Shown here: one piece after another, positions 1 through 48,638 of the stretch
Layout of the letters: every line of letters starts with the position of its first letter
Numbering within the stretch: the first letter of the stretch is position 1
Assembly: GCA_022447625.1 (NCBI GenBank)
Contig: JAKVAX010000001.1
Span: 1 to 64,000, forward strand
Direction of reading: 5' to 3'
Source of the DNA: Flavobacteriales bacterium
GTDB lineage: Bacteria; Bacteroidota; Bacteroidia; Flavobacteriales_D; Sanyastnellaceae
DNA: 64,000 bases
Notes under the pieces: model-generated
What the model saw: only the letters and a program-made list of their open reading frames with translations
What the model was told of the DNA's origin: nothing
The model's database searches: none
Made by a program: the position numbers and the translations under genes

Positions 1-67
1 TGTGTATTTTCGGAATGATATCCATCGACTTCTGATAGACTTTGAGCTGCTCAAATGTATTTGCCAT
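1..67 (-). CDS. four-helix-bundle protein (S23/IVP-like), N-terminal part only
   Basis: Reading leftwards from the ATG at 65-67, the 22 visible codons give MANTFEQLKVYQKSMD followed by IIPKIH, and the frame stays open to the window edge. The opening F-x-x-L-x-V-[YW]-x-K-[SA] is typical of the small (about 115-125 aa) four-helix-bundle proteins first described from 23S rRNA intervening sequences and common as stand-alone genes in Bacteroidota. Their role is not established. The next gene to the right is about 400 bases away, separated by short-repeat arrays. The call rests on 22 residues only. Confidence 0.6.
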   Translation of the reverse strand, partial: MANTFEQLKVYQKSMDIIPKIH

Positions 68-214
68 AGCACCAAGCTAAACAACACCACAATCCATTTA
101 ACAACCGTTTTACGCTCGAAGCTCAAAACTTCATAGATGGATAAAAAGTGGCCTGCAGTGCATGATTAGGATAATTGGTTAAACTTCCTTGAAGGTGCTC
201 TAGTTTCATCTATT

Positions 215-367
215 GTGGACCGTGGACTGTGGACTGTGGACTGTGGACCGATTTGTTTTTGTCCTTTAAGAGGAATTGAATATCTATTGAGTCTGTTTAG
301 CATTATTTGGGTTGACACATAATTCACGCGAAGACTAGCGGTCCACAGTCCACAGTCCACGGTCTAC
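215..367. repeat. inverted pair of heptamer arrays (GTGGACY)
   Basis: 215-250 holds five tandem GTGGACC/GTGGACT units. 339-367 holds the same units in reverse complement, three full copies plus edges. The arms can pair over roughly 27 bases around a loop of about 88 bases. Stretch 68-471 has no convincing gene: the only long reading frame across it (166-360, minus) is made largely of the repeat and is rejected. Confidence 0.85.
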
Positions 368-410
368 GAAAGGAAAAGGGGCCAACAATAGTCAGCCCCT
401 CCCAATTCCA

Positions 411-467
411 CAGACGCCGGATGCCAGCCGCCGGAAAAAAGCGGACGCCGGATGCCGGACGCCGGAG
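411..467. repeat. GC-rich short direct repeats (GACGCCGGATGCC type)
   Basis: Units such as GACGCCGGAT, GCCGCCGG, GGACGCCGGATGCC and GGACGCCGG follow one another up to five bases before the stop codon of the SPFH gene. This is another member of the 7-nt repeat class seen elsewhere in the window, but with its own unit. It lies directly downstream of the gene, where a terminator would be expected; no conventional hairpin plus T-run is seen. Confidence 0.7.
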
Positions 468-471
468 TATA

Positions 472-1269
472 CTATTCCGTACCCTCCTCACCGAGAAGCA
501 CAGGTGCCTTCCCGTCAGTAATAATCAACTTCGCATTCGGAGAGTTCGCCAGATCGCGAAGTACTTCCAAGCTGCGTAGTTTGATAATTTGATCGTTGAG
601 TCCTTCAGTAAGAATGAGTTGAGCGTCTCGGGTTCCTTCCGCTTCGATCTTTTTACGCTCAGCTTCTTGGCGTTCTAATTGTAGAACAAATTCCATACGC
701 AGGGCCTCTTGTTCTGCGCGTAGTTTATCTTCAATCGCTGTGTAGAGTCCGTCTGGAAGACTGATGCTTTTGAGGAGAACAGCTTCAATTTCGAAACCAC
801 GTTCCCCAAGTAGGTCGTCCATTCGTTTTAAGATAGATGCCTCGATATCGCTTCGGTTTCCTGAGTGCATGTCTTTCGCGAGGTACTGCGCACAAACGTC
901 GGCAGCAGCAGATCGGAATACACTCAAGATGACCACTTCCTCGTAGTCTAATCCCACTTCTTCAATAACCGCAATTGCTTTCTCAGGCTTAATGTGGTAG
1001 AGAATAGAGATCTCAGACAGTACGTTCAATCCTTCTTTTGAAGGGAGGTTCAGATTTACTTCTAGATTCACCGTTCGGGTCGGGATACGAATGAGGGTCG
1101 TTGTAAATGGATTGATCCCCACCGTTCCAGATTCATGAATCTTAGAGGTTAGTTTCCCAAGGCGTTGCTTCACTCCAACCTCACCCGGTCGGATCACAGC
1201 GCAGCTGGAAAGAATGAACGTTACGAATAGCAGGACGATGCCGCTCAAGGCGATTTTATGATTTTTCAT
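472..1269 (-). CDS. SPFH/prohibitin-family lipoprotein
   Basis: 265 aa. The N-terminus has a signal sequence ending in a lipobox (LSSC, Cys23), so the protein is probably lipid-anchored rather than membrane-spanning. An SPFH/Band 7 domain follows (about 25-200; start PGEVGVKQRLGKL), then a charged helix rich in E, R and A (AEQEALRMEFVLQLERQEAE, about 180-215) typical of prohibitins, which oligomerise into rings on membranes and scaffold other proteins. I chose the ATG at 1267-1269 over the one at 1293, because it places the signal peptide at the N-terminus. A lipobox in this family is worth noting, since most prohibitins use an uncleaved anchor. The exact role is unknown. Confidence 0.8.
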   Translation of the reverse strand: MKNHKIALSGIVLLFVTFILSSCAVIRPGEVGVKQRLGKLTSKIHESGTVGINPFTTTLIRIPTRTVNLEVNLNLPSKEGLNVLSEISILYHIKPEKAIAVIEEVGLDYEEVVILSVFRSAAADVCAQYLAKDMHSGNRSDIEASILKRMDDLLGERGFEIEAVLLKSISLPDGLYTAIEDKLRAEQEALRMEFVLQLERQEAERKKIEAEGTRDAQLILTEGLNDQIIKLRSLEVLRDLANSPNAKLIITDGKAPVLLGEEGTE

Positions 1270-1351
1270 ACTTGATGTTTTTGGTTGATACACGATATGT
1301 GCACGCTAGCAATGCGTGCGACATGGGCAGTTTCAGTAAAGAGAAGAGGGG

Positions 1352-1645
1352 TTATCCTTCTGGAGGAGGATGAGGAACTGGAAGGTGTATCAATGAAGAA
1401 GAATCGATCCAGGAGATAGTATGTTTGTTGAGGTATCCCACAAACGAGCCATGCGAATCAAGCCATGAAAATGTATAGAGCTCGTCTGCTTCTTCTTCAC
1501 CAAACTCCAAAGGTTCACCTTCAGATTTCTCTGAAGTTTCAGTCACTTCGTAGTGATGATCGAATCGATTAAATGTCGGGGTAATCAGGCTAGCGCCGAA
1601 AACAATAACAAGGGCAAATGACAGAACGTGCATCCAACGAAGCAT
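1352..1645 (-). CDS. small membrane protein of unknown function
   Basis: About 97 aa if started at MLRWMHVLSF. There is one hydrophobic segment near the N-terminus (VLSFALVIVFGASLITPTF), then an acidic stretch (SEGEPLEFGEEEADEL) and a proline-rich end (PVPHPPPEG). I do not recognise the family. The frame stays open upstream to 1828, but that part is encoded by the GCGGAAT heptamer array and a REP, so it is unlikely to be protein; ATGs at 1672 and 1678 are alternative starts. The gene is read towards the SPFH gene, 82 bases away. Confidence 0.5.
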   Translation of the reverse strand: MLRWMHVLSFALVIVFGASLITPTFNRFDHHYEVTETSEKSEGEPLEFGEEEADELYTFSWLDSHGSFVGYLNKHTISWIDSSSLIHLPVPHPPPEG

Positions 1646-1747
1646 CGTGTAATGGTTGTAACCTTTCCCCATGAACATAATACAGGTGCGGTAAATGGTT
1701 GTTAAATTCGGTATTAGATGCACAAAAATCATACCGGAATGAGGGGG

Positions 1748-1803
1748 GCGGAACGCGGATCGCGGAATGCGGGTTGCGGAATGCGGAATGTGGAATGCGG
1801 TTC
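1748..1803. repeat. heptamer array GCGGAAT x8 (degenerate)
   Basis: Eight consecutive 7-nt units: GCGGAAC, GCGGATC, GCGGAAT, GCGGGTT, GCGGAAT, GCGGAAT, GTGGAAT, GCGGTTC. The array sits 13 bases before the first REP palindrome. Its unit reappears in reverse complement at 2871-2891, on the other side of the RAYT/REP locus. Confidence 0.85.
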
Positions 1804-1815
1804 TGTCATAGATGT

Positions 1816-1880
1816 GGATGGATTTCATCCATCCCTACGGTTTGGATTTGATGCAGGTGGTGGACGGATTTCATCCGTCC
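1816..1880. repeat. two REP palindromes 3' of the RAYT gene
   Basis: 1816-1834 reads GGATGGATTTCATCCATCC and 1862-1880 reads GGACGGATTTCATCCGTCC. Both are 8-bp stems around a TTC loop. The second carries a T-to-C change in the left arm matched by A-to-G in the right arm, so pairing is preserved. They have the opposite orientation to the REPs on the 5' side of the gene (2518 onwards), and each is followed by CCTAC, the conserved REP flank. Confidence 0.85.
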
Positions 1881-1907
1881 CTACATTTGATAATAGGTCC
1901 ATCCATG

Positions 1908-1926
1908 AACCGGATGTTATCCGGTT
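1908..1926. repeat. palindrome at the RAYT stop codon
   Basis: AACCGGAT, GTT, ATCCGGTT form a perfect 8-bp stem with a 3-base loop that overlaps the stop codon (1925-1927) of the RAYT gene. It has the same 8-3-8 geometry as the REPs but a different sequence. It may act as a weak transcription end or be a diverged REP. Confidence 0.6.
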
Positions 1927-2389
1927 AGAGGTTTTGAGGGTTTTCTCGAATATATCTGGCGGCGTTTTCGATGGCGGTTTGATGGTTTAGGATACGGTCA
2001 TGGTAACCAATTTGCCATTCGAAATCACAATTCTCGATCAATGCCTGTGATGTAACCCTGGCTTTGAAACCGGCTATGACCCGACCTAAGGTTGCTTTTT
2101 GAGGTCCGAATTTTCCAGCGCCTGATTGCTCTTTTGGTAGTCGTCGGTTGAAATGAATAATTAGATGAATATGATCTGGCATAATGACCCATTCTTTTAA
2201 GATCACGTTGGAGTGCACTTCAGGAATATCAAATATGGTTCGCTGCACAATTTCGCCCACCGGAGAAAGAGAGACAGCGCCTTTTTCGACGCTCCCGAAA
2301 TAAGGAAGACGATTCTTTGTGCAAATGGTAATTAGATAATCGGCGGTCTGGCTATAATCCCATCCCTTCTTTCGAATTGAACGATACAT
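1925..2389 (-). CDS. REP-associated tyrosine transposase (RAYT, Y1/HUH family)
   Basis: 154 aa, the usual length of the domesticated single-strand transposases related to IS200/IS605 TnpA that act on REP palindromes. The HUH motif is visible in VIMPDHIHLIIHF (about residues 68-80). The C-terminal block WQIGYHDRILNHQTAIENAA carries the conserved G-Y-H-[DE] and the helix with the expected catalytic tyrosine region, followed by RYIRENPQNL, which is diagnostic of RAYTs. REP palindromes lie on both sides in opposite orientation, as in known RAYT loci. No insertion-sequence ends or target duplications were seen, so this is a resident REP system and not a complete IS. The ATG at 2387-2389 is preceded only by non-coding DNA. 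Confidence 0.9.
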   Translation of the reverse strand: MYRSIRKKGWDYSQTADYLITICTKNRLPYFGSVEKGAVSLSPVGEIVQRTIFDIPEVHSNVILKEWVIMPDHIHLIIHFNRRLPKEQSGAGKFGPQKATLGRVIAGFKARVTSQALIENCDFEWQIGYHDRILNHQTAIENAARYIRENPQNL

Positions 2390-2465
2390 AATGGTAGTTT
2401 CCTTCGAAGGTCTAACCAGAAAATGATCATATCAATTTTTATTGATAATCGTCGGACAGAACTTT

Positions 2466-2845
2466 ACCTGCGTATTTATACGCCGACATTATTTCATTCT
2501 CGAAGGGCGTTCCGTAGGGATGGATGAAATCCATCCGATTCGTGATGAACGAAGAAATTTCACCCCTACGGGATGTTTGATTCTCGAAGGGCGTTCCGTA
2601 GGGATGGATGAAATCCATCCGATTCGTGATGAACGAAGAAATTTCACCCCTGCGGGATGTTTGATTCTCGAAGGGCGTATTTATACGCCGACATTATTTC
2701 ATTCTCGAAGGGCGTACCGTAGGGATGGATGAAATCCATCCGATTCGTGATGAACGAAGAAATTTCACCCCTGCGAGATGTTTGATACGCCGACAACAAT
2801 TCATTCTCAAAAGGTGTTCCGTTAGGATAGATGAAATCCATCCGG
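2466..2845. repeat. REP array 5' of the RAYT gene (four REP units)
   Basis: The core GGATGGATGAAATCCATCC occurs at 2518-2536, 2602-2620 and 2723-2741, with a one-mismatch copy at 2825-2843. The first two are 84 bases apart and embedded in a longer repeat that runs from CTCGAAGGGCGTTCCGTAG, through the core and ATTCGTGATGAACGAAGAAA, to TTTCACCCCTACGGGATG. A second palindrome, GCGTATTTATACGC, starts near 2470 and recurs near 2677. Reading frames in this stretch are artefacts of the repeat. Region 2390-2936 holds no gene. Confidence 0.9.
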
Positions 2846-2870
2846 ACCTAAGAGATAAAAAATCCATTAA

Positions 2871-2891
2871 CCGCAATCCGCATTCCGCGAT
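2871..2891. repeat. heptamer array ATTCCGC x3 (inverse of the 1748 array)
   Basis: CCGCAAT, CCGCATT, CCGCGAT. These are reverse complements of the units at 1748-1803, so the RAYT gene and its REPs lie between inverted heptamer arrays about 1.1 kb apart. Confidence 0.65.
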
Positions 2892-2936
2892 CTCTTTCCC
2901 GCAATAAGAACCTCAAGTCTTTCGTTCACTTTTCGA

Positions 2937-3797
2937 ATGCCTTCATTTCAACTAATTTTTATCTCACTCATTATGGGTTCCTTTTGGGTTGTAATGCCCA
3001 AAGGAGTCTTTGCGCAGTTTTATACCACTGGAAAGATTGAGGAACTCAATGATTCTTCTTGTGATTGCGTAACAGAGTTCATTATTTCTGAGACATACAA
3101 AAGACGCCGTGCTTTTCGAGATACGATTCAAATGAATGAGTATGATGAGGAAGGGGCGCTAGTGGCTGAGCATTTCTATAGCGATAAGCCGCGTAGCATA
3201 TATTACAGCAGAGAAGAAAGTCTACTCAACCACATTTATTATACTTCTGTTGCACTGGATACTCTCTCAGTCAACATTGAATGGGAAAACGGTATGGTAT
3301 CTCTCATCGATACTCGGAGTCCACAATCTTCCTTACTTCAGCGTTTCTCTTATTCGCAAAAGGGTTTCGTCAAAGTTGAAGATTACGTTAGCCACGATCG
3401 AAGCTCCACATCGAGGACTGAATATCATGACGTTGATGAAGGGAAATCGATCGTTACAACAAACAATGAAGACACAGTTTTTGTGTTGATACTCACTAAA
3501 ATTGATTCGATCTCCACTCTAGAAACTGAAATTGATAATGGCTTAGAGCGTCACACTTTGGTCAAGCGCTTGGGTTCTGGCTGTGTGGAATACTATGAGA
3601 AGCACAAGGGAGTCTTCGAACTTCGATACTATGATTGTATTGATGAAACTACGGGCATTGAAACAATTAGAGATTATCATGAAGGCAAATTGCAGCAAAC
3701 AATCGTGATCAGTACAGTAGATGATTCCTTTGTAAAGAGTTACTTCAATCCAAAAGGGAAACTAACGAAGAAGGTTTATAGCGTTAAAGTGAGGTGA
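2937..3797 (+). CDS. exported protein of unknown function
   Basis: 286 aa. The signal peptide (about 1-26, cleavage after VFA in GVFAQF) is clear. The mature part is rich in Tyr, Asp, Ser and Thr and has short beta-strand-like repeats of the form Y-x(3)-G-x-L/V (YDEEGALVAEHFY, YHEGKLQQTIV, YFNPKGKLTKKVY), resembling the loose repeats of YD/RHS-type and MORN-type secreted Bacteroidota proteins. No catalytic motif was recognised. It stands alone between two REP arrays, with no operon partners. The ATG at 2937 is the only start giving a signal peptide. Confidence 0.7.
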   Translation: MPSFQLIFISLIMGSFWVVMPKGVFAQFYTTGKIEELNDSSCDCVTEFIISETYKRRRAFRDTIQMNEYDEEGALVAEHFYSDKPRSIYYSREESLLNHIYYTSVALDTLSVNIEWENGMVSLIDTRSPQSSLLQRFSYSQKGFVKVEDYVSHDRSSTSRTEYHDVDEGKSIVTTNNEDTVFVLILTKIDSISTLETEIDNGLERHTLVKRLGSGCVEYYEKHKGVFELRYYDCIDETTGIETIRDYHEGKLQQTIVISTVDDSFVKSYFNPKGKLTKKVYSVKVR

Positions 3798-3830
3798 GGT
3801 GTATTGCTATGACTTCACATGATTCAGTAG

Positions 3831-3851
3831 GGATTACCCTGTGGGTAATCC
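3831..3851. repeat. second-type REP palindrome
   Basis: GGATTACCC, TGT, GGGTAATCC: a 9-bp stem with a 3-base loop, preceded by the GTAG flank seen before the other REPs. A related, less perfect copy (GGATTGCCCC..GTGAGCAATC) is at 9331-9350. Both are followed at a distance by the same text GGTGTTACGAG and CTACGGGATG or TTACGGGATG. Confidence 0.7.
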
Positions 3852-3939
3852 GGTCACTAGGCTCTGTGGTGTTCAACCCCTACGATGTAGTGTGACCTGT
3901 GGTGATGTTGGGTGTTACGAGATTTCACCCTTACGGGAT

Positions 3940-4145
3940 GTTTGATTCTCGAAAGGCGTATTTATACGCCGTCAATATCTCATTCTCTAAGGGCGTTCCG
4001 TAGGGATGGATGAAATCCATCCGGTTCGTGATGAACGAAGAAATTTCATCCCTGCGGGATGTTTGATTCTCCGAAGGCGTATTTATACGCCGACATTATT
4101 TCATTCTCGAAGGGCGTTCCGTAGGGATGGATGAAATCCATCCAA
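3940..4145. repeat. REP array (two REP units)
   Basis: Cores GGATGGATGAAATCCATCC at 4004-4022 and 4125-4143, with the same flanks as the 2466-2845 array, including CTACGGGATG-like text, GCGTATTTATACGC and GGGCGTTCCGTAG. The spacing between cores is 121 bases because a GCGTATTTATACGC segment is inserted. Region 3798-4247 holds no gene. Confidence 0.9.
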
Positions 4146-4202
4146 TCGTTGATGAAAAATGGAAATTTCCTCCATGCCGTATCCCCAAATTCGGTAACCT
4201 TC

Positions 4203-4244
4203 ATTCCACATTCCACATTCCACATTCCACATTCCACATTCCAC
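4203..4244. repeat. heptamer array ATTCCAC x6
   Basis: Six exact tandem copies of ATTCCAC ending four bases before the aroA stop codon. Perfect identity suggests recent expansion. The unit differs by one base from ATTCCGC at 2871-2891. Confidence 0.9.
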
Positions 4245-4247
4245 GTC

Positions 4248-5492
4248 TCACCCCATCAACACCTCCAAATCATCCCAAAACTCAGGATAACTCTTCTGAA
4301 CCGCCTCCGCATTGGTGATCGTTACCGGACCTCCTTGAAGGCCGAGCAGAGCGCCCGCCATCGCAATGCGGTGGTCGTTGTGTGAATCGATGGTGCAGCG
4401 TTGAACTTCACCTGGGTGTACCGTCATCACGTCACCCTCGAGGTCTACGCGGATGCCGGCCTCTTTGAAGATAGATTGTATGACGACGCCTCGGTCGCTT
4501 TCCTTGTGCTTGAGGCGGTGGACTCCCGTGATCTTGCTTGGCTTGTCGCAGGCTACGGCGAGGGCGGCAAGGGCAGGGAAGAGGTCTGGACAATCCGTTG
4601 CATCGAAGTTGAAGCCGCGGAGTTTGTGGGCTTGAATGCGGTACTTGCCGTCTTGGTTCATCAGCTTGGCCCCGGCGAATAATAAGGCCCCGGTTATCGC
4701 TTGATCAGCCTGGGTGAATTTCTGCCCGAGTCCATCAACGAAGATGCCGTTTTTGCTGGCTACGGCGCCTGCAACGAGTAGGGCAGCGCCGGCTGACCAA
4801 TCACCTTCAACCGTTACTTCGGCGGGGGTGTATGCTTGTCCACCGGGGATGGTGAAGCGTTGGTAGTCTTTGTGCATGGTGCGAATACCGAAGGTATCAA
4901 GCACCTCTAGGGTCATATCTACGTAGGGCTTGCTCTTGAGGGAATCTACCTCAATGACCGTATCATTTTCCGCAAGGGGAAGAGCCATGAGTAGTCCAGA
5001 AAGAAACTGTGAGCTTAATGAGCCATCAAGCTTGGCGCTTCCTCCGGTGAAAGGACCTTGGATCAGCGCTGGAAGTTTGCCTTCCGTAGTGTTGATCTGC
5101 GCTCCAAGTTGCGGGAAGACTTTCTCAAACTCGGTGAGTGGACGTTCCAAGAGACTGCCCATTCCGTTGAGCTTTACTTCATAACCAGACATCGCTCCGA
5201 CCGCCGCAAATAGGCGCATGCCGAGGCCTGATTCACCCACGTTCAATTCATACTCCGGAGCTTGTTTGCCTCCCTCGATATGTAGACTATTGTTCTTGTC
5301 TTCGTTGACTTCTGCACCTAAAATGAGGGCGCAGTCAAGTGCGTGAAATGAATCTTGATTGGCGGCTGGATTATGGATGATCGCTGTTCCGCGAGAAAGG
5401 AGGGAGGCAACGATTAAACGCTGCATCAAGCTTTTCGACCCCGGGGCCGTTACTGTGCCTTCCAGATTCGATTTGCCGATGGTCTTTTTCAC
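4248..5492 (-). CDS. aroA: 3-phosphoshikimate 1-carboxyvinyltransferase (EPSP synthase)
   Basis: 414 aa. Transfers enolpyruvyl from PEP to shikimate-3-phosphate, the sixth step of the shikimate pathway. Family blocks are in order: substrate-binding APGSKSLMQRLIVASLLSRG (about 16-35), GESGLGMRLFAAVGA, LSSQFLSGLLMALPL, the switch region CPDLFPALAALAVA, LKHKESDR, and HNDHRIAMAGALLGL near the C-terminus. The start codon is GTG (5490-5492), immediately after the menG stop, with AAAGGA just upstream inside menG as a ribosome site; this favours translational coupling. Length is slightly below the usual 425-430. Confidence 0.95.
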   Translation of the reverse strand: MKKTIGKSNLEGTVTAPGSKSLMQRLIVASLLSRGTAIIHNPAANQDSFHALDCALILGAEVNEDKNNSLHIEGGKQAPEYELNVGESGLGMRLFAAVGAMSGYEVKLNGMGSLLERPLTEFEKVFPQLGAQINTTEGKLPALIQGPFTGGSAKLDGSLSSQFLSGLLMALPLAENDTVIEVDSLKSKPYVDMTLEVLDTFGIRTMHKDYQRFTIPGGQAYTPAEVTVEGDWSAGAALLVAGAVASKNGIFVDGLGQKFTQADQAITGALLFAGAKLMNQDGKYRIQAHKLRGFNFDATDCPDLFPALAALAVACDKPSKITGVHRLKHKESDRGVVIQSIFKEAGIRVDLEGDVMTVHPGEVQRCTIDSHNDHRIAMAGALLGLQGGPVTITNAEAVQKSYPEFWDDLEVLMG

Positions 5493-6233
5493 CTATCCTT
5501 TTTTACCGGTGTAGATGGTGGCGATTCCACCTGTCAAAGCTTTGCGTTCCACGCTAGTGTAACCACAACGCTTCATAATTTCTAAGAACTCATCTCCTTC
5601 AGGAAAAGCTGCTACCGACTCCGGGAGGTAAGTATAGGCGCGACTGTCTTTGGAGAGCAGACGACCTACGATTGGCAGAATGGCCTTGAAGTAGAACCAG
5701 TACAACTGCTTAAATGGGAAACTACGAGGCTTGGAGAATTCGAGGATGAATCCGGTAGCACCCGGACGAAGTACACGAAGCATTTCGGTGAGTCCTTTTT
5801 CAAGGTTCTCGAAATTACGTACCCCGAAAGCTGCGGTATAGGCATCGAAGTAATCATCTTCAAACGGAAGGTTTTCAGAGTCTCCGTATTTCAATTCGAT
5901 GAGTTGGTCGAGTCCTTTCTTCTTCAACTTCTCGCGGCCAATGTCAAGCATCCCGTTCGAGATATCCACCCCTATGATTTTCTCAGCATCAGCACCCATG
6001 CGAGCTGCTTCGATGGCGAAGTCACCGGTACCCGTAGCGACATCCATGATGCGCTTTGGTTTCAGCTTTTTCATCATTCGAATGGCTTTCTTACGCCATA
6101 GGATATCGATCCCAAATGATAATACGTGATTGAGTTGGTCGTAGCTGTGAGCGATGTTATCAAACATCTCCGCTACCTGCTCTTTCTTAGCGCGGTCTTC
6201 AGTTGAAGAATATGGAGTGACTTTCGTTCCCAA
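5493..6233 (-). CDS. menG: demethylmenaquinone methyltransferase
   Basis: About 246 aa, UbiE/MenG family. Methylates demethylmenaquinone with SAM in the last step of menaquinone synthesis, consistent with a Bacteroidota respiratory chain. The SAM-binding motif I is IMDVATGTGDFAIEA; downstream family motifs are YFDAYTAAFGVRNFENLEKG and MLRVLRPGATGFILEFSKP. There is no in-frame ATG at the N-terminus. I place the start at the TTG of 6231-6233, which gives M-G-T-K-V-T-P-Y, like the M-x-K-V-T-P-Y start of relatives; a TTG at 6254 would add seven residues. The gene abuts aroA with no gap, so the two are probably co-transcribed. Confidence 0.92.
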   Translation of the reverse strand: MGTKVTPYSSTEDRAKKEQVAEMFDNIAHSYDQLNHVLSFGIDILWRKKAIRMMKKLKPKRIMDVATGTGDFAIEAARMGADAEKIIGVDISNGMLDIGREKLKKKGLDQLIELKYGDSENLPFEDDYFDAYTAAFGVRNFENLEKGLTEMLRVLRPGATGFILEFSKPRSFPFKQLYWFYFKAILPIVGRLLSKDSRAYTYLPESVAAFPEGDEFLEIMKRCGYTSVERKALTGGIATIYTGKKG

Positions 6234-41433: not shown

Positions 41434-42966
41434 ATGAAACGGTTTCTCTACACCTTTACTTTACTGCTCGCAACCATTTCGTTGTCAGCACAAACAGTAG
41501 TGAACGTGATCGTCGACAGCGACGTTCATGAGACACTCGAAACGGCAGTAATAGCCGCTGAGTTAGATGATGATCTGTCAGGCGACGGGCCCTTCACGGT
41601 TTTCGCGCCAACAGACGCAGCATTTGAAGCATTACCTGACGGAGCATTGGACGGATTACTTGCGGATCCAACTGGCGCTTTAGCAGACGTTCTTCTTTAC
41701 CACGTACATGGTGGAGACTTAGAAAGCACTGACCTTATGGAAGGAGCACTAAGTACACTTCTTGGTGAAGATGTAACAGTTTCTTTTGATGGAATGATGG
41801 TCATGATCAATGATGCCCTTGTTACCATTGCAAACCTTCCAGCTACGAACGGAGTAGTACACGTAATTGACGCAGTACTTCTACCACCAGCGCCACTACC
41901 GGTAACAGTAGTTGAAATCATCGTGAACTCTGAAGATCACGAGACGCTAGAAACTGCGGTTATCGCAGCAGAACTAGACGACGATCTTTCAGGAGACGGC
42001 CCATTCACTGTATTTGCACCAACAGATGCAGCGTTTGAGAACCTACCTGAAGGAGCATTGGATGATCTTCTTGCAGATCCAACAGGAGCACTAGCAGACG
42101 TATTGCTTTACCACGTAGCATCAGGAGCAGTTCTTTCAGACGCACTCTCTGATGGACAAATGATCGAGACACTACTCGGGCCAGACGTAGAAGTATCTAT
42201 TGATGGTGATATGGTAATGATCAACGACGCGATGGTAACCATTGCGAACTTGGAAGCAGACAACGGAGTAGTACACGTAATTGACGCAGTACTCCTTCCA
42301 CCTGCGGATAACCCAGCAACGGTAGTAGATATCATCGTAGCTTCTGAAGACCACGAGATTCTAGAAGCAGCAGTTATCGCAGCGGATTTGGTTGACGATC
42401 TTTCAGGAGACGGCCCATTCACTGTATTTGCACCAACAGATGATGCATTCGGAAACCTTCCTGAAGGATTGCTCGACGATCTTTTAGCAGATCCTGAAGG
42501 AGCATTGGCGAACATCCTTCTGTACCACGTAGCAGGAGTAAACGCCCTTTCTGGAGACCTTAGCGACGGCCAAGCTGTTGGGACATTGCAAGGAGAAGAC
42601 GTAGTTATCTCTATCACTGGTGAAATGGTGATGGTGAATGACGCGAACGTAACGACTGCTAACCTGGTAGCAGACAACGGAGTCGTCCACGTGATTGATG
42701 CTGTATTGACACCTCCAACATCAGTTGATGAAGTAGACGCATCAGATATCGTGGTTTACCCGAACCCAGCGCAGAACATCGTGAATATCCAAGGTGTAAA
42801 TGCTGGAGCGCGTTACACGGTAATCGATCAGGCTGGACGTGTTGTTGCTCAGAGCACATTCACTGGAGCCAACACTATTGACGTTTCAGACTACGAAGCA
42901 GGACTATACACACTTATCATCTCAGATAATACAACGTTGACTGCGAAGCAGTTTATGGTAAAGTAA
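41434..42966 (+). CDS. secreted protein with three fasciclin (FAS1) domains and a T9SS type A sorting domain
   Basis: 510 aa. Signal peptide 1-19 (TISLSAQ). Three FAS1 repeats (about 22-150, 155-290, 295-430), each with the H1 motif DGPFTVFAPTDAAF and the H2-like region NGVVHVIDAVLLPP. The C-terminus (VVYPNPAQNIVNIQG..GLYTLIISDNTTLTAKQFMVK, about 440-510) is the T9SS type A signal, so it should be exported and attached to the cell surface. FAS1 domains mediate adhesion. The repeats are very alike at the DNA level, including 49 identical bases. Monocistronic, with terminator. Confidence 0.93.
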   Translation: MKRFLYTFTLLLATISLSAQTVVNVIVDSDVHETLETAVIAAELDDDLSGDGPFTVFAPTDAAFEALPDGALDGLLADPTGALADVLLYHVHGGDLESTDLMEGALSTLLGEDVTVSFDGMMVMINDALVTIANLPATNGVVHVIDAVLLPPAPLPVTVVEIIVNSEDHETLETAVIAAELDDDLSGDGPFTVFAPTDAAFENLPEGALDDLLADPTGALADVLLYHVASGAVLSDALSDGQMIETLLGPDVEVSIDGDMVMINDAMVTIANLEADNGVVHVIDAVLLPPADNPATVVDIIVASEDHEILEAAVIAADLVDDLSGDGPFTVFAPTDDAFGNLPEGLLDDLLADPEGALANILLYHVAGVNALSGDLSDGQAVGTLQGEDVVISITGEMVMVNDANVTTANLVADNGVVHVIDAVLTPPTSVDEVDASDIVVYPNPAQNIVNIQGVNAGARYTVIDQAGRVVAQSTFTGANTIDVSDYEAGLYTLIISDNTTLTAKQFMVK

Positions 42967-46061: not shown

Positions 46062-48638
46062 ATGAACCCTTTGTTGCTTGTTAGAAGGCTGATGCTCATT
46101 GGCCTTGTGCTGTTGTCATGTGCAGCTTTCGCTCAAATCCCCTGTGAGAATGGGCTCGCCGGTGGAGTCTATCCTTGTGATAATGTTGATCTCCTAGGTA
46201 CGGCCACCCAATCGGATATGGGTGCAGCTGCCAATGTTGAGATGAATGATATCTGGGGATGGACAGATGCCCTAGATGGAAAGGAATACGTCATCCTCGG
46301 CAGAACTGACGGGACGAGTTTCTTCGATATTTCAGATCCGCTGAATCCGATTCACCTCGGCTTTCTTCCAACCTTCACAACGAGCTCACTTTGGCGCGAT
46401 ATCAAAACCTATGGTGATTACGCATTCATCGTTTCAGAAGCTGGCGGACACGGAATGCAAGTTTTTGACTTGACGCGTTTACGCAACGTGGCGAATCCAC
46501 CGGAGACATTTACCGAAGATGCGCACTACAACGGATTTGGTAACGCCCACAATATCGTGATCAACCCTGACGTAGCTCTTGCTTACGGTGTTGGAACGAA
46601 CACTTTCAGCGGTGGATTCCACGTAGTTGATATCTCGGATCCATTGAACCCAACCATCGCAGGAGACTTCGCTTCTGATGGTTACACACACGACGCCCAA
46701 GTCATTACATACAACGGACCAGATGCTACCTACGTTGGTAAGCAAATCGGTATGGCTTGTAATGAAGACACGTTCACGATTGTAGACCTTGACGATCCAA
46801 CGGACGCGCAACAGATTGCTCGTGTTGGATACAGCAATGTTGCCTATGCGCACCAAGGATGGCTGACTCCTGATCACCGCTACTTTGTATTAGGGGATGA
46901 GCTAGATGAAAACAACTTCGGAAACAACACTCGTTCAATTATATGGGATATCCAGGACTTGGATAATCCAGTAGTGATTGGTGAATACCTCAGTTCAGAA
47001 GCGGCCATTGACCACAATATGTACTCAGATGGGAATCTGATGTTCCAAGCGAATTACCGCGCAGGTCTTCGAATTCTCGATACAGATGATATCGCCAATG
47101 CTAACTTGAGTGAAGTCGCATTCTTCGACCTTTACCCAGCGAGTAACTCGGCAGCATTCAATGGTGCTTGGAGTAGCTACCCTTATTTCGAGTCAGGTGT
47201 AGTAGCGGTTAGTCATATTGAAGAAGGGTTGTTCCTTCTTTACCCAACCTTCATTGAAGCAAGCGTTCCTCAAACCGATTACTGCTATGAAGATGACGTG
47301 GTGATTGATATCGTACTTGATGCCGGCTTCGCTGGTCCTATCAATATGAGCGTTTCCAATGGTCTTCCAGCAGGAGCAACAGCAACGTTCTCAGCGAACG
47401 GAGTAGGTCCAGGTAGTTACACGCTTACGCTTTCAAACTTACCTGACGTTACGGGAACTCTTGACATCGAAATTTCGGCGGTAGGAGCATTCTTCACGTA
47501 CCGAGCGGAGGTGAGTTTCATGATCTTGGATTGTGTAAACGACGTTCTAGGATGCACGGATCCTACAGCAACGAACTACAACCCTGCAGCAACGATAGAC
47601 GATGGAAGCTGCACCTACCCTTGTATTGATATCACACTTCAGATTGATACTGATTGTTGGGGAGAAGAAACGAGTTGGACGCTCAATGATGCGGCAGGAA
47701 ATAACATTTTCACTGTAGCAGGAAACACGCTCACAGACCAAACCACCTTCACTTGGGACTTCTGCCTTCAGCCAGGCTGCTACGACTGGAACATTGCTGA
47801 TAGCTTTGGAGATGGACTTGCGGGTATTGCTTCTGGATGTGCTGTAGATGGCAACTACCAAGTGCTGGATGCAGCAGGTGACGTGATTCTAGCCATGGGT
47901 GATCCGAACTTCGGAGGTGGTATCACAGAGAATTTCTGTGTTGAGCTTCCAGTGGATGTTTCAGGTTGTACTGATCCTACTGCATGTAACTACGATCCAG
48001 CGGCTACAACTGACGATGGCTCTTGTATCCTACCTGATGGATGTACTGACGCCACTGCGTGTAACTACGACCCTGCAGCTCTTTGTGATAATGGTTCTTG
48101 TATCCTTCCTAATGGGTGTACTGATGCTACAGCATGTAACTATGATCCTGCTGCCACATGTGACGATGGCTCTTGTCAGCTTCCAGATGGATGTACGGAT
48201 ACTAGCGCTTGTAACTACGATCCAATGGCATTGTGTGATGATGGTTCATGTGTATTACCACAGATGTACTATGCTGACAATGATAATGACACTTTTGGAG
48301 CGGGTCTACCTGTTCTGCTTTGTTCACCGCAAGCTGGATTCGTTCTTCAGGATGGAGACTGTGATGACAACAACAACATGGCTTACCCTGGAGCGCCAGG
48401 AACAGCCGAAGGCATTGATAACAACTGCAATGGTACAATCGATCTAGATGAAGAGATCCCAGCAAGCTGTTTCGGAGACTTCAATAATGATGGCTTGATC
48501 AATGCATCTGACCTACTAACGGTATTGGGTGACTTTGGATGTGTTTCAAATTGTAACGCCGACCTAAACGATGATGATATCGTGAATGCAAGTGATATTC
48601 TCATCTTCCTTGGTCTGTTCGGAACGATTTGTCCGTGA
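46062..48638 (+). CDS. choice-of-anchor-B/LVIVD protein with GCTD repeats and a dockerin-like C-terminus
   Basis: 858 aa. Signal peptide 1-25 (VLLSCAAFAQ). Residues about 28-405 are an LVIVD-type propeller (TSFFDISDPLNPIHLGFLP, FHVVDISDPLNPTIAGDFA, HNIVINPDVALAYGVG), typical of choice-of-anchor-B proteins. Then one GCTDPTATNYNPAATIDDGS repeat, a Cys-bracketed module (IDTDCWGEETSW..CYDWNIADSFGDGL), four more GCTD repeats (about 640-725), a MopE-like Asp/Asn-rich segment (YYADNDNDTFGAG..DGDCDDNNNMAYPGAPG), and a dockerin-like tail with two Asp/Asn loops (GDFNNDGLINASDLLTVLGD; ADLNDDDIVNASDILIFLG). No T9SS type A or B domain is present, so surface attachment may use the tail. Confidence 0.85.
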   Translation: MNPLLLVRRLMLIGLVLLSCAAFAQIPCENGLAGGVYPCDNVDLLGTATQSDMGAAANVEMNDIWGWTDALDGKEYVILGRTDGTSFFDISDPLNPIHLGFLPTFTTSSLWRDIKTYGDYAFIVSEAGGHGMQVFDLTRLRNVANPPETFTEDAHYNGFGNAHNIVINPDVALAYGVGTNTFSGGFHVVDISDPLNPTIAGDFASDGYTHDAQVITYNGPDATYVGKQIGMACNEDTFTIVDLDDPTDAQQIARVGYSNVAYAHQGWLTPDHRYFVLGDELDENNFGNNTRSIIWDIQDLDNPVVIGEYLSSEAAIDHNMYSDGNLMFQANYRAGLRILDTDDIANANLSEVAFFDLYPASNSAAFNGAWSSYPYFESGVVAVSHIEEGLFLLYPTFIEASVPQTDYCYEDDVVIDIVLDAGFAGPINMSVSNGLPAGATATFSANGVGPGSYTLTLSNLPDVTGTLDIEISAVGAFFTYRAEVSFMILDCVNDVLGCTDPTATNYNPAATIDDGSCTYPCIDITLQIDTDCWGEETSWTLNDAAGNNIFTVAGNTLTDQTTFTWDFCLQPGCYDWNIADSFGDGLAGIASGCAVDGNYQVLDAAGDVILAMGDPNFGGGITENFCVELPVDVSGCTDPTACNYDPAATTDDGSCILPDGCTDATACNYDPAALCDNGSCILPNGCTDATACNYDPAATCDDGSCQLPDGCTDTSACNYDPMALCDDGSCVLPQMYYADNDNDTFGAGLPVLLCSPQAGFVLQDGDCDDNNNMAYPGAPGTAEGIDNNCNGTIDLDEEIPASCFGDFNNDGLINASDLLTVLGDFGCVSNCNADLNDDDIVNASDILIFLGLFGTICP

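Follow-up and report, generated by a model that had tools for sequence, protein, structure and literature searches.

The window analysed here is the whole 64,000-nucleotide stretch, which belongs to the genome designated G000. Near its beginning, a gene for a protein of 154 amino acids (RAYT1) lies on the minus strand between REP palindromes, and a second hairpin, designated hairpin A, stands between the gene and the nearest REP on each side. The features of the locus are listed below by position in the window.

1816-1838, minus strand: further REP, GTAG followed by GGATGGAT-GAA-ATCCATCC
1862-1884, minus strand: 3'-side end REP, GTAG foot (1881-1884) followed by GGACGGAT-GAA-ATCCGTCC
1908-1926, minus strand: hairpin A of the 3' side, AACCGGATAACATCCGGTT, which overlaps the stop codon
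1925-2389, minus strand: RAYT1 gene, 154 amino acids, with HuH motif MPDHIH, WQ, and the catalytic tyrosine in YIRENP
2469-2484, plus strand: 5'-side hairpin A, TGCGTATTTATACGCC
2492-2678, plus strand: tandem 84-bp units with REPs
2514-2536, plus strand: 5'-side end REP, GTAG followed by GGATGGAT-GAA-ATCCATCC
2554-2569, minus strand: within the repeat unit, a probable REP in inverted orientation and degenerate, reading GTAGGGGTGAAATTTC on the minus strand, proposed on inspection of the sequence
2598-2620, plus strand: REP of the 84-bp unit, without hairpin A
2674-2689, plus strand: hairpin A, GGCGTATTTATACGCC
2719-2741, plus strand: REP
2821-2843, plus strand: degenerate REP, foot GTTA, one stem mismatch
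3922-4143, plus strand: tandem 121-bp units, each a REP plus hairpin A
3955-3970, plus strand: hairpin A beyond the next gene
4000-4022, plus strand: REP beyond the next gene
4076-4091, plus strand: hairpin A beyond the next gene
4121-4143, plus strand: REP beyond the next gene

An open reading frame of 286 amino acids (2937-3797), with no match in Pfam or NCBIfam, lies between the two REP clusters. Tandem arrays with a heptamer period (TGTGGAC, GGAATGC, CATTCCA), partly inverted copies of one another, sit beside the clusters at 214-248, 341-372, 1735-1800, 2871-2892 and 4202-4244; other heptamers (GGCGTTA, GGCTTAA, CCCTAGA) adjoin REPs elsewhere in G000 and in its congener G002, and intergenic heptamer repeats of different sequence are present in Beggiatoaceae (PMC4679880). 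Longer tandem repeats occur at 41848-42705 (414 bp) and 47967-48251 (75/150 bp). Searches of positions 1-6000 against Rfam yielded no match.

The RAYT1 gene and protein

A preliminary description of this DNA had pointed to a transposase-like gene at 1925-2389. Judged from its sequence, this gene is a RAYT (REP-associated tyrosine transposase), predicted to encode a small domesticated transposase, because its product matches the NCBIfam model REP_Tyr_transpos (NF047646; 50.3 bits, E 2.3e-13), because E. coli TnpA_REP (4ER8) was the sole PDB match to a profile of RAYT1 relatives (E 1.2e-6), and because the HuH motif and tyrosine are intact. The NCBIfam score falls under the curated cut-off of 80 bits, which we read as divergence from the members of the model, the cut-off being an annotation threshold and no biological criterion; the same model was matched by all 17 relatives collected. 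The score against Pfam Y1_Tnp (22.6 bits) was slightly under the cut-off of 23. Both histidines of the HuH motif (H73 and H75), W125 and Y146 are invariant across the 17 relatives, giving RAYT1 the conserved HuH and catalytic tyrosine of a Y1 HuH transposase. A single-sequence AlphaFold model had a pLDDT of 51 and was left out of the evidence.

RAYT1 has a syntenic orthologue in G002 that is 96% identical, with a dN/dS of approximately 0.09 between the two genomes, and thus the gene is under purifying selection; it is also single-copy and vertically kept. Two further RAYTs in G000, RAYT2 and RAYT3, are 53% and 40% identical to RAYT1. Scanning genome contigs with RAYT1 gave distant relatives only, from Pontiellaceae. 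An insertion sequence of the IS200/IS605 type, a mobile gene of high copy number, was considered and rejected, as there is one copy of RAYT1, in a syntenic position and with inverted ends.

REPs around RAYT1 and compensatory changes in their stems

Perfect 19-nt REP cores begin at 1816 on the minus strand and at 2518, 2602, 2723, 4004 and 4125 on the plus strand. The core at 2825 (plus strand) carries one mismatch, and that at 1862 (minus strand) is doubly compensated, with a T-to-C change and a matching A-to-G change. GTAG directly precedes every intact core in the window as its foot, and these cores are canonical REPs whose 8-bp stem closes on a GAA triloop. The arrangement agrees with the preliminary description in each particular: REPs stand on both sides of the gene in opposite orientations, four cores lie 5' of it (2518, 2602 and 2723 perfect, 2825 with one mismatch), and two perfect cores lie beyond the next gene. 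The 121-bp tandem unit exceeds the 84-bp one by 37 bp, a stretch that contains hairpin A and is bounded by repeated ATTCTCGAAGGGCGT, and this difference probably arose by deletion between these short repeats.

The paired change at 1862-1880 relative to 1816-1834 had been taken to mean that the hairpin itself is selected, and genome-wide counts back that claim, although compensatory change was known for REPs before (PMC2817692). Cores within three mismatches were found at 60 places in the genome, compared to one for the reversed pattern, a count that takes in the second strand of perfect palindromes, so that the physical sites are fewer. Among matches with two mismatches, 13 of 14 swap both partners of one stem pair for another Watson-Crick pair; as copies are not independent, the safer count is that of distinct sequences, three of four of which are compensatory (GGACGGAT/ATCCGTCC, GGTTGGAT/ATCCAACC and AGATGGAT/ATCCATCT). 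By our own arithmetic, about 1.6% would be expected by chance (8 partner pairs among 171 position pairs, one base in three), and compensatory change in the REP stems is therefore beyond chance. A third member of the genus, G001, has 275 REPs of the form AGGGACG-N9-CGTCC and none of the reversed pattern. Across the 14 distinct cores read there, 97.6% of the cells at the inner three stem pairs do pair, compared to 64% after shuffling, and this pairing is not imposed by the search pattern, which leaves the inner 3 bp free.

A second hairpin beside the REPs

The preliminary description had also reported a second palindrome, GCGTATTTATACGC, that it did not recognise. This palindrome is a real second hairpin and part of the element ends; at four of the five perfect plus-strand cores its start precedes that of the core by 49 nt, the exception being the core at 2602, which lacks it because its unit is of 84 and not 121 bp. 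Hairpin A ends approximately 20-33 nt before the GTAG foot, and elsewhere in the genus other hairpins take that place (GGCGCATTTATGCGCC, GGCGTTTATAAACGCC, GGCGCCGTTAGGCGCC, GCGCCGCATCCTTGCGGCGC and others). In G002, AACCGGATGACATCCGGTT stands at the place matching AACCGGATAACATCCGGTT of the 3'-side hairpin A.

A strong hairpin (score of at least 18) is present in 31 of 74 clusters of upstream sequence, whereas downstream stretches have one in 8 of 74 cases and dinucleotide shuffles in 1.1%. In some of the 31, the hairpin is the adjacent REP of an array rather than A. As the A hairpins were found through their palindromicity, the independent evidence for them is this excess over shuffles together with their fixed position, and not base-pair covariation within A. 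DNA folding of positions 4070-4146 and 1858-1926 gave essentially both hairpins (z of -2.6 and -3.7).

Copies of A with the 11-nt foot GGTCCTTTAGC and a GGYGCA stem were found at 53 sites in G002 and 10 in G000, and at none in G001. A REP adjoins nine of the ten sites in G000. In G002, no REP was detected at approximately 34 of the 53 sites, often inverted A-A pairs (L155-L165); A can therefore exist alone. We accordingly rejected the view that A occurs solely within REP units, and the composite is not claimed to be obligatory.

A stereotyped two-hairpin layout at RAYT loci of the genus

Seven RAYT loci in three species share one layout: RAYT1 of G000 and of G002, and the RAYTs a, b, c, d and f of G001. 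All seven have, ahead of the start codon, a REP at 115-129 nt and an A at 73-81 nt, both inverted. At the 3' end of six, A starts at -1 to +7 nt from the stop codon and the REP 44-53 nt after that codon; at the seventh, RAYT b of G001, A falls within what is predicted to be the last part of the gene and the REP 1 nt past the stop. The layout is kept in the other RAYTs of the genus though both hairpin sequences have changed, and since the conforming proteins other than the 96% orthologue are only 34-51% identical to RAYT1, the layout has persisted while most of the sequence changed.

RAYT2 fits on its 3' side only (4 and 55 nt), and the layout was not seen at RAYT3, which is without REPs, at RAYT e of G001 or at RAYT4 of G002. 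When 249 genomes of the order were surveyed, the readable RAYT loci of other Flavobacteriales genera contained no instance of it. Three RAYTs of other genera (L226, L238 and L240) have one long hairpin per side, with stems of 9-20 bp, and the ends at L226 are GTAG/CTAC-like. Tandemly reiterated REPs with periods of 60 and 45 bp occur in G001 (L142, L144, L201-L203), where in most cases the first unit alone has hairpin A.

The REP family across genomes

A covariance model of foot and hairpin (R1) was searched in 60 genomes and gave 61 matches in G000, 53 in G002, which has the 96% RAYT1 orthologue, and 0-4 in each of the 58 others, including G001, a congener without a close RAYT1 orthologue. 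REP cores that were absent elsewhere in the genome, or equally present in relatives lacking the RAYT, had been named in advance as findings that would speak against the association, and neither was observed. These counts are consistent with REP abundance going with the RAYT1 orthologue, a link not independently proven, G000 and G002, the two REP-positive genomes on which it rests, being sisters. The REPs are many, dispersed and mostly intergenic, with 93 of 115 copies overlapping no open reading frame of 100 amino acids or more.

Class I REPs, found around RAYT1, have a GAA or GAC loop, and in 70 of the 77 copies the stem follows immediately on GTAG; class II REPs, found around RAYT2 on contig C44, mostly have CGAGAG and other loops. 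The suggestion that copies would cluster as inverted pairs held in part: neighbouring class I REPs form nine tail-to-tail pairs (GTAG inside) and eight head-to-head pairs (GTAG outside), but 11 head-to-tail neighbours were common too, compared to the predominantly inverted pairs by which REPINs and BIMEs are recognised. Approximately ten class II REPs with a GAGAG foot persist as orphans in G002 (L124, L125, L127, L131-L135), which is without RAYT2, and REPs and RAYT can therefore part. An array of GGGCACGCATGCGTGCCC hairpins with foot GATAG lies 5' of RAYT4 in G002 (L152:1828-2354); copies of the GGGCACGCATGCGTGCCC palindrome also lie dispersed close to REPs in G000, a genome in which a RAYT resembling RAYT4 was not found.

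Empty-site mapping between G000 and G002 located one REP (C23:177064 of G000) that is missing from the orthologous place in G002, with boundaries that are not clean, and two other sites that are rearranged; the comparison yielded no clean target-site boundary.

Discussion

The locus resembles the REPtrons described previously (PMC2817692; Corneloup 2021, PMC8266576) in its HuH/Tyr protein, its inverted flanking REPs with a GTAG foot, its compensatory stems and its intergenic copies, and the 8-bp perfect stem and 3-nt loop are those of S. maltophilia REPs. Compensatory REP stems, inverted flanking REPs and the co-evolution of RAYT and REP were reported in 2010 (Nunvar, PMC2817692). Unlike those REPtrons, the present one has a Bacteroidota host, two-hairpin ends, and the feet GAGAG and GATAG beside GTAG. 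Double-palindrome terminal inverted repeats (TIRs) are known from the RAYT genes ppf607 of P. putida and pfs4255 of P. fluorescens (Di Nocera 2013, PMC3733652, Fig. 8B), described as "degenerated GTAG-1 units" next to unrelated stem-loops, with genomic copies numbering in the hundreds. There too, each flank of the RAYT carries a GTAG-REP joined to a stem-loop that is not related to it; their GTAG unit is degenerate whereas it is intact here, and the present layout is found again at several divergent paralogues whose two hairpins have both changed. Because these Pseudomonas ends precede it, the two-hairpin end is a variant of a known thing. A RAYT with compensatory inverted REPs is thus known, and what is new is the two-hairpin end variant with its stereotyped layout, for which, across divergent paralogues, no description was found in the open-access literature.

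Bacteroidetes RAYTs have been placed in TnpA_Y1 subclasses 2.4 and 2.6 (Quentin 2018, PMC6006769), and RAYT1 fully fits the definition of neither. It shares with subclass 2.4 the WQ motif, Y-I-x-x-N-P, the Bacteroidetes host and long canonical REPs, but has DHIH and YIRENP in place of NH[IFV]H and YIxNNP, has no REP insertions within the gene, and has two-hairpin ends instead of double-foot REPs. Subclass 2.6 likewise comprises Bacteroidetes RAYTs with unusual flanking structures, but its flanks are without GT[AG]G, whereas GTAG is present here.

Taken as a whole, the locus is very probably a REPtron, in which a single-copy RAYT under purifying selection is accompanied by its cognate REP family, and whose ends in this genus are a two-hairpin module. 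TnpA_REP of E. coli, S. maltophilia and Marinomonas binds single-stranded REP hairpins and cuts at CT or CA, with GTAG as the guide (PMC8266576). By analogy, RAYT1 would bind the REP as a single-stranded hairpin guided by the GTAG foot, would use its tyrosine to cut one strand at a dinucleotide close by and would then rejoin it, and REPs may thereby be copied or moved. The end module would run from the inner hairpin A across approximately 20-33 nt to the foot and REP hairpin, at fixed distances from the start and stop codons, and the RAYT may treat the whole as an end, with the outer hairpin as guide and specificity determinant and A as a second structural element. It is from the geometry that we infer action on both hairpins, with A as a second recognition or structural part. 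Many of the dispersed units look like copies of such ends.

It is possible, and we propose it tentatively, that the RAYTs of this genus recognise a composite two-hairpin end, a distinct TnpA_REP end architecture in which the foot (GTAG, GAGAG or ATAG) and the two hairpins have co-evolved with each paralogue while the spacing stayed fixed. Two other roles for A appear unlikely, each to a similar degree. One keeps the RAYT and REPs as in a REPtron and makes A an RNA or transcription element, a terminator or a protection of the mRNA 3' end at the RAYT stop, carried along in copies of the ends; A does begin at the stop codon in most conforming loci and T-runs follow some copies (L143 and L155, for example), but on the 5' side A is present too, inverted and 73-81 nt ahead of the start codon, and most copies, those of the window included, have no T-run. 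The other sees in A a separate REP-like family that a different RAYT may have moved and that was later joined to GTAG-REPs, as the solitary inverted pairs with the 11-nt foot in G002 and the degenerate Pseudomonas REPs adjoined to unrelated stem-loops (PMC3733652) would suggest; the fixed geometry of A, REP and gene in divergent G001 paralogues, where the GGTCCTTTAGC foot is absent, points instead to an old joint unit, and in G000 a REP stands beside nine of ten such sites. Spread solely by tandem duplication or recombination of a once-formed repeat, without RAYT action, is highly improbable, for although tandem units do occur (84 and 121 bp in the window; 45, 60, 177 and 247 bp elsewhere), single copies are dispersed at many unrelated intergenic places, one genome holds several REP stem families, and the RAYT is under purifying selection.

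The mechanism by which RAYTs move REPs is still unsolved. To our knowledge, the RAYT proteins studied so far act on one hairpin. Several RAYT paralogues within one genus, which share the geometry but differ in foot and in both outer and inner hairpin, form a natural matched set of proteins and DNA, which could show which part carries specificity and whether the second hairpin defines the moving unit.
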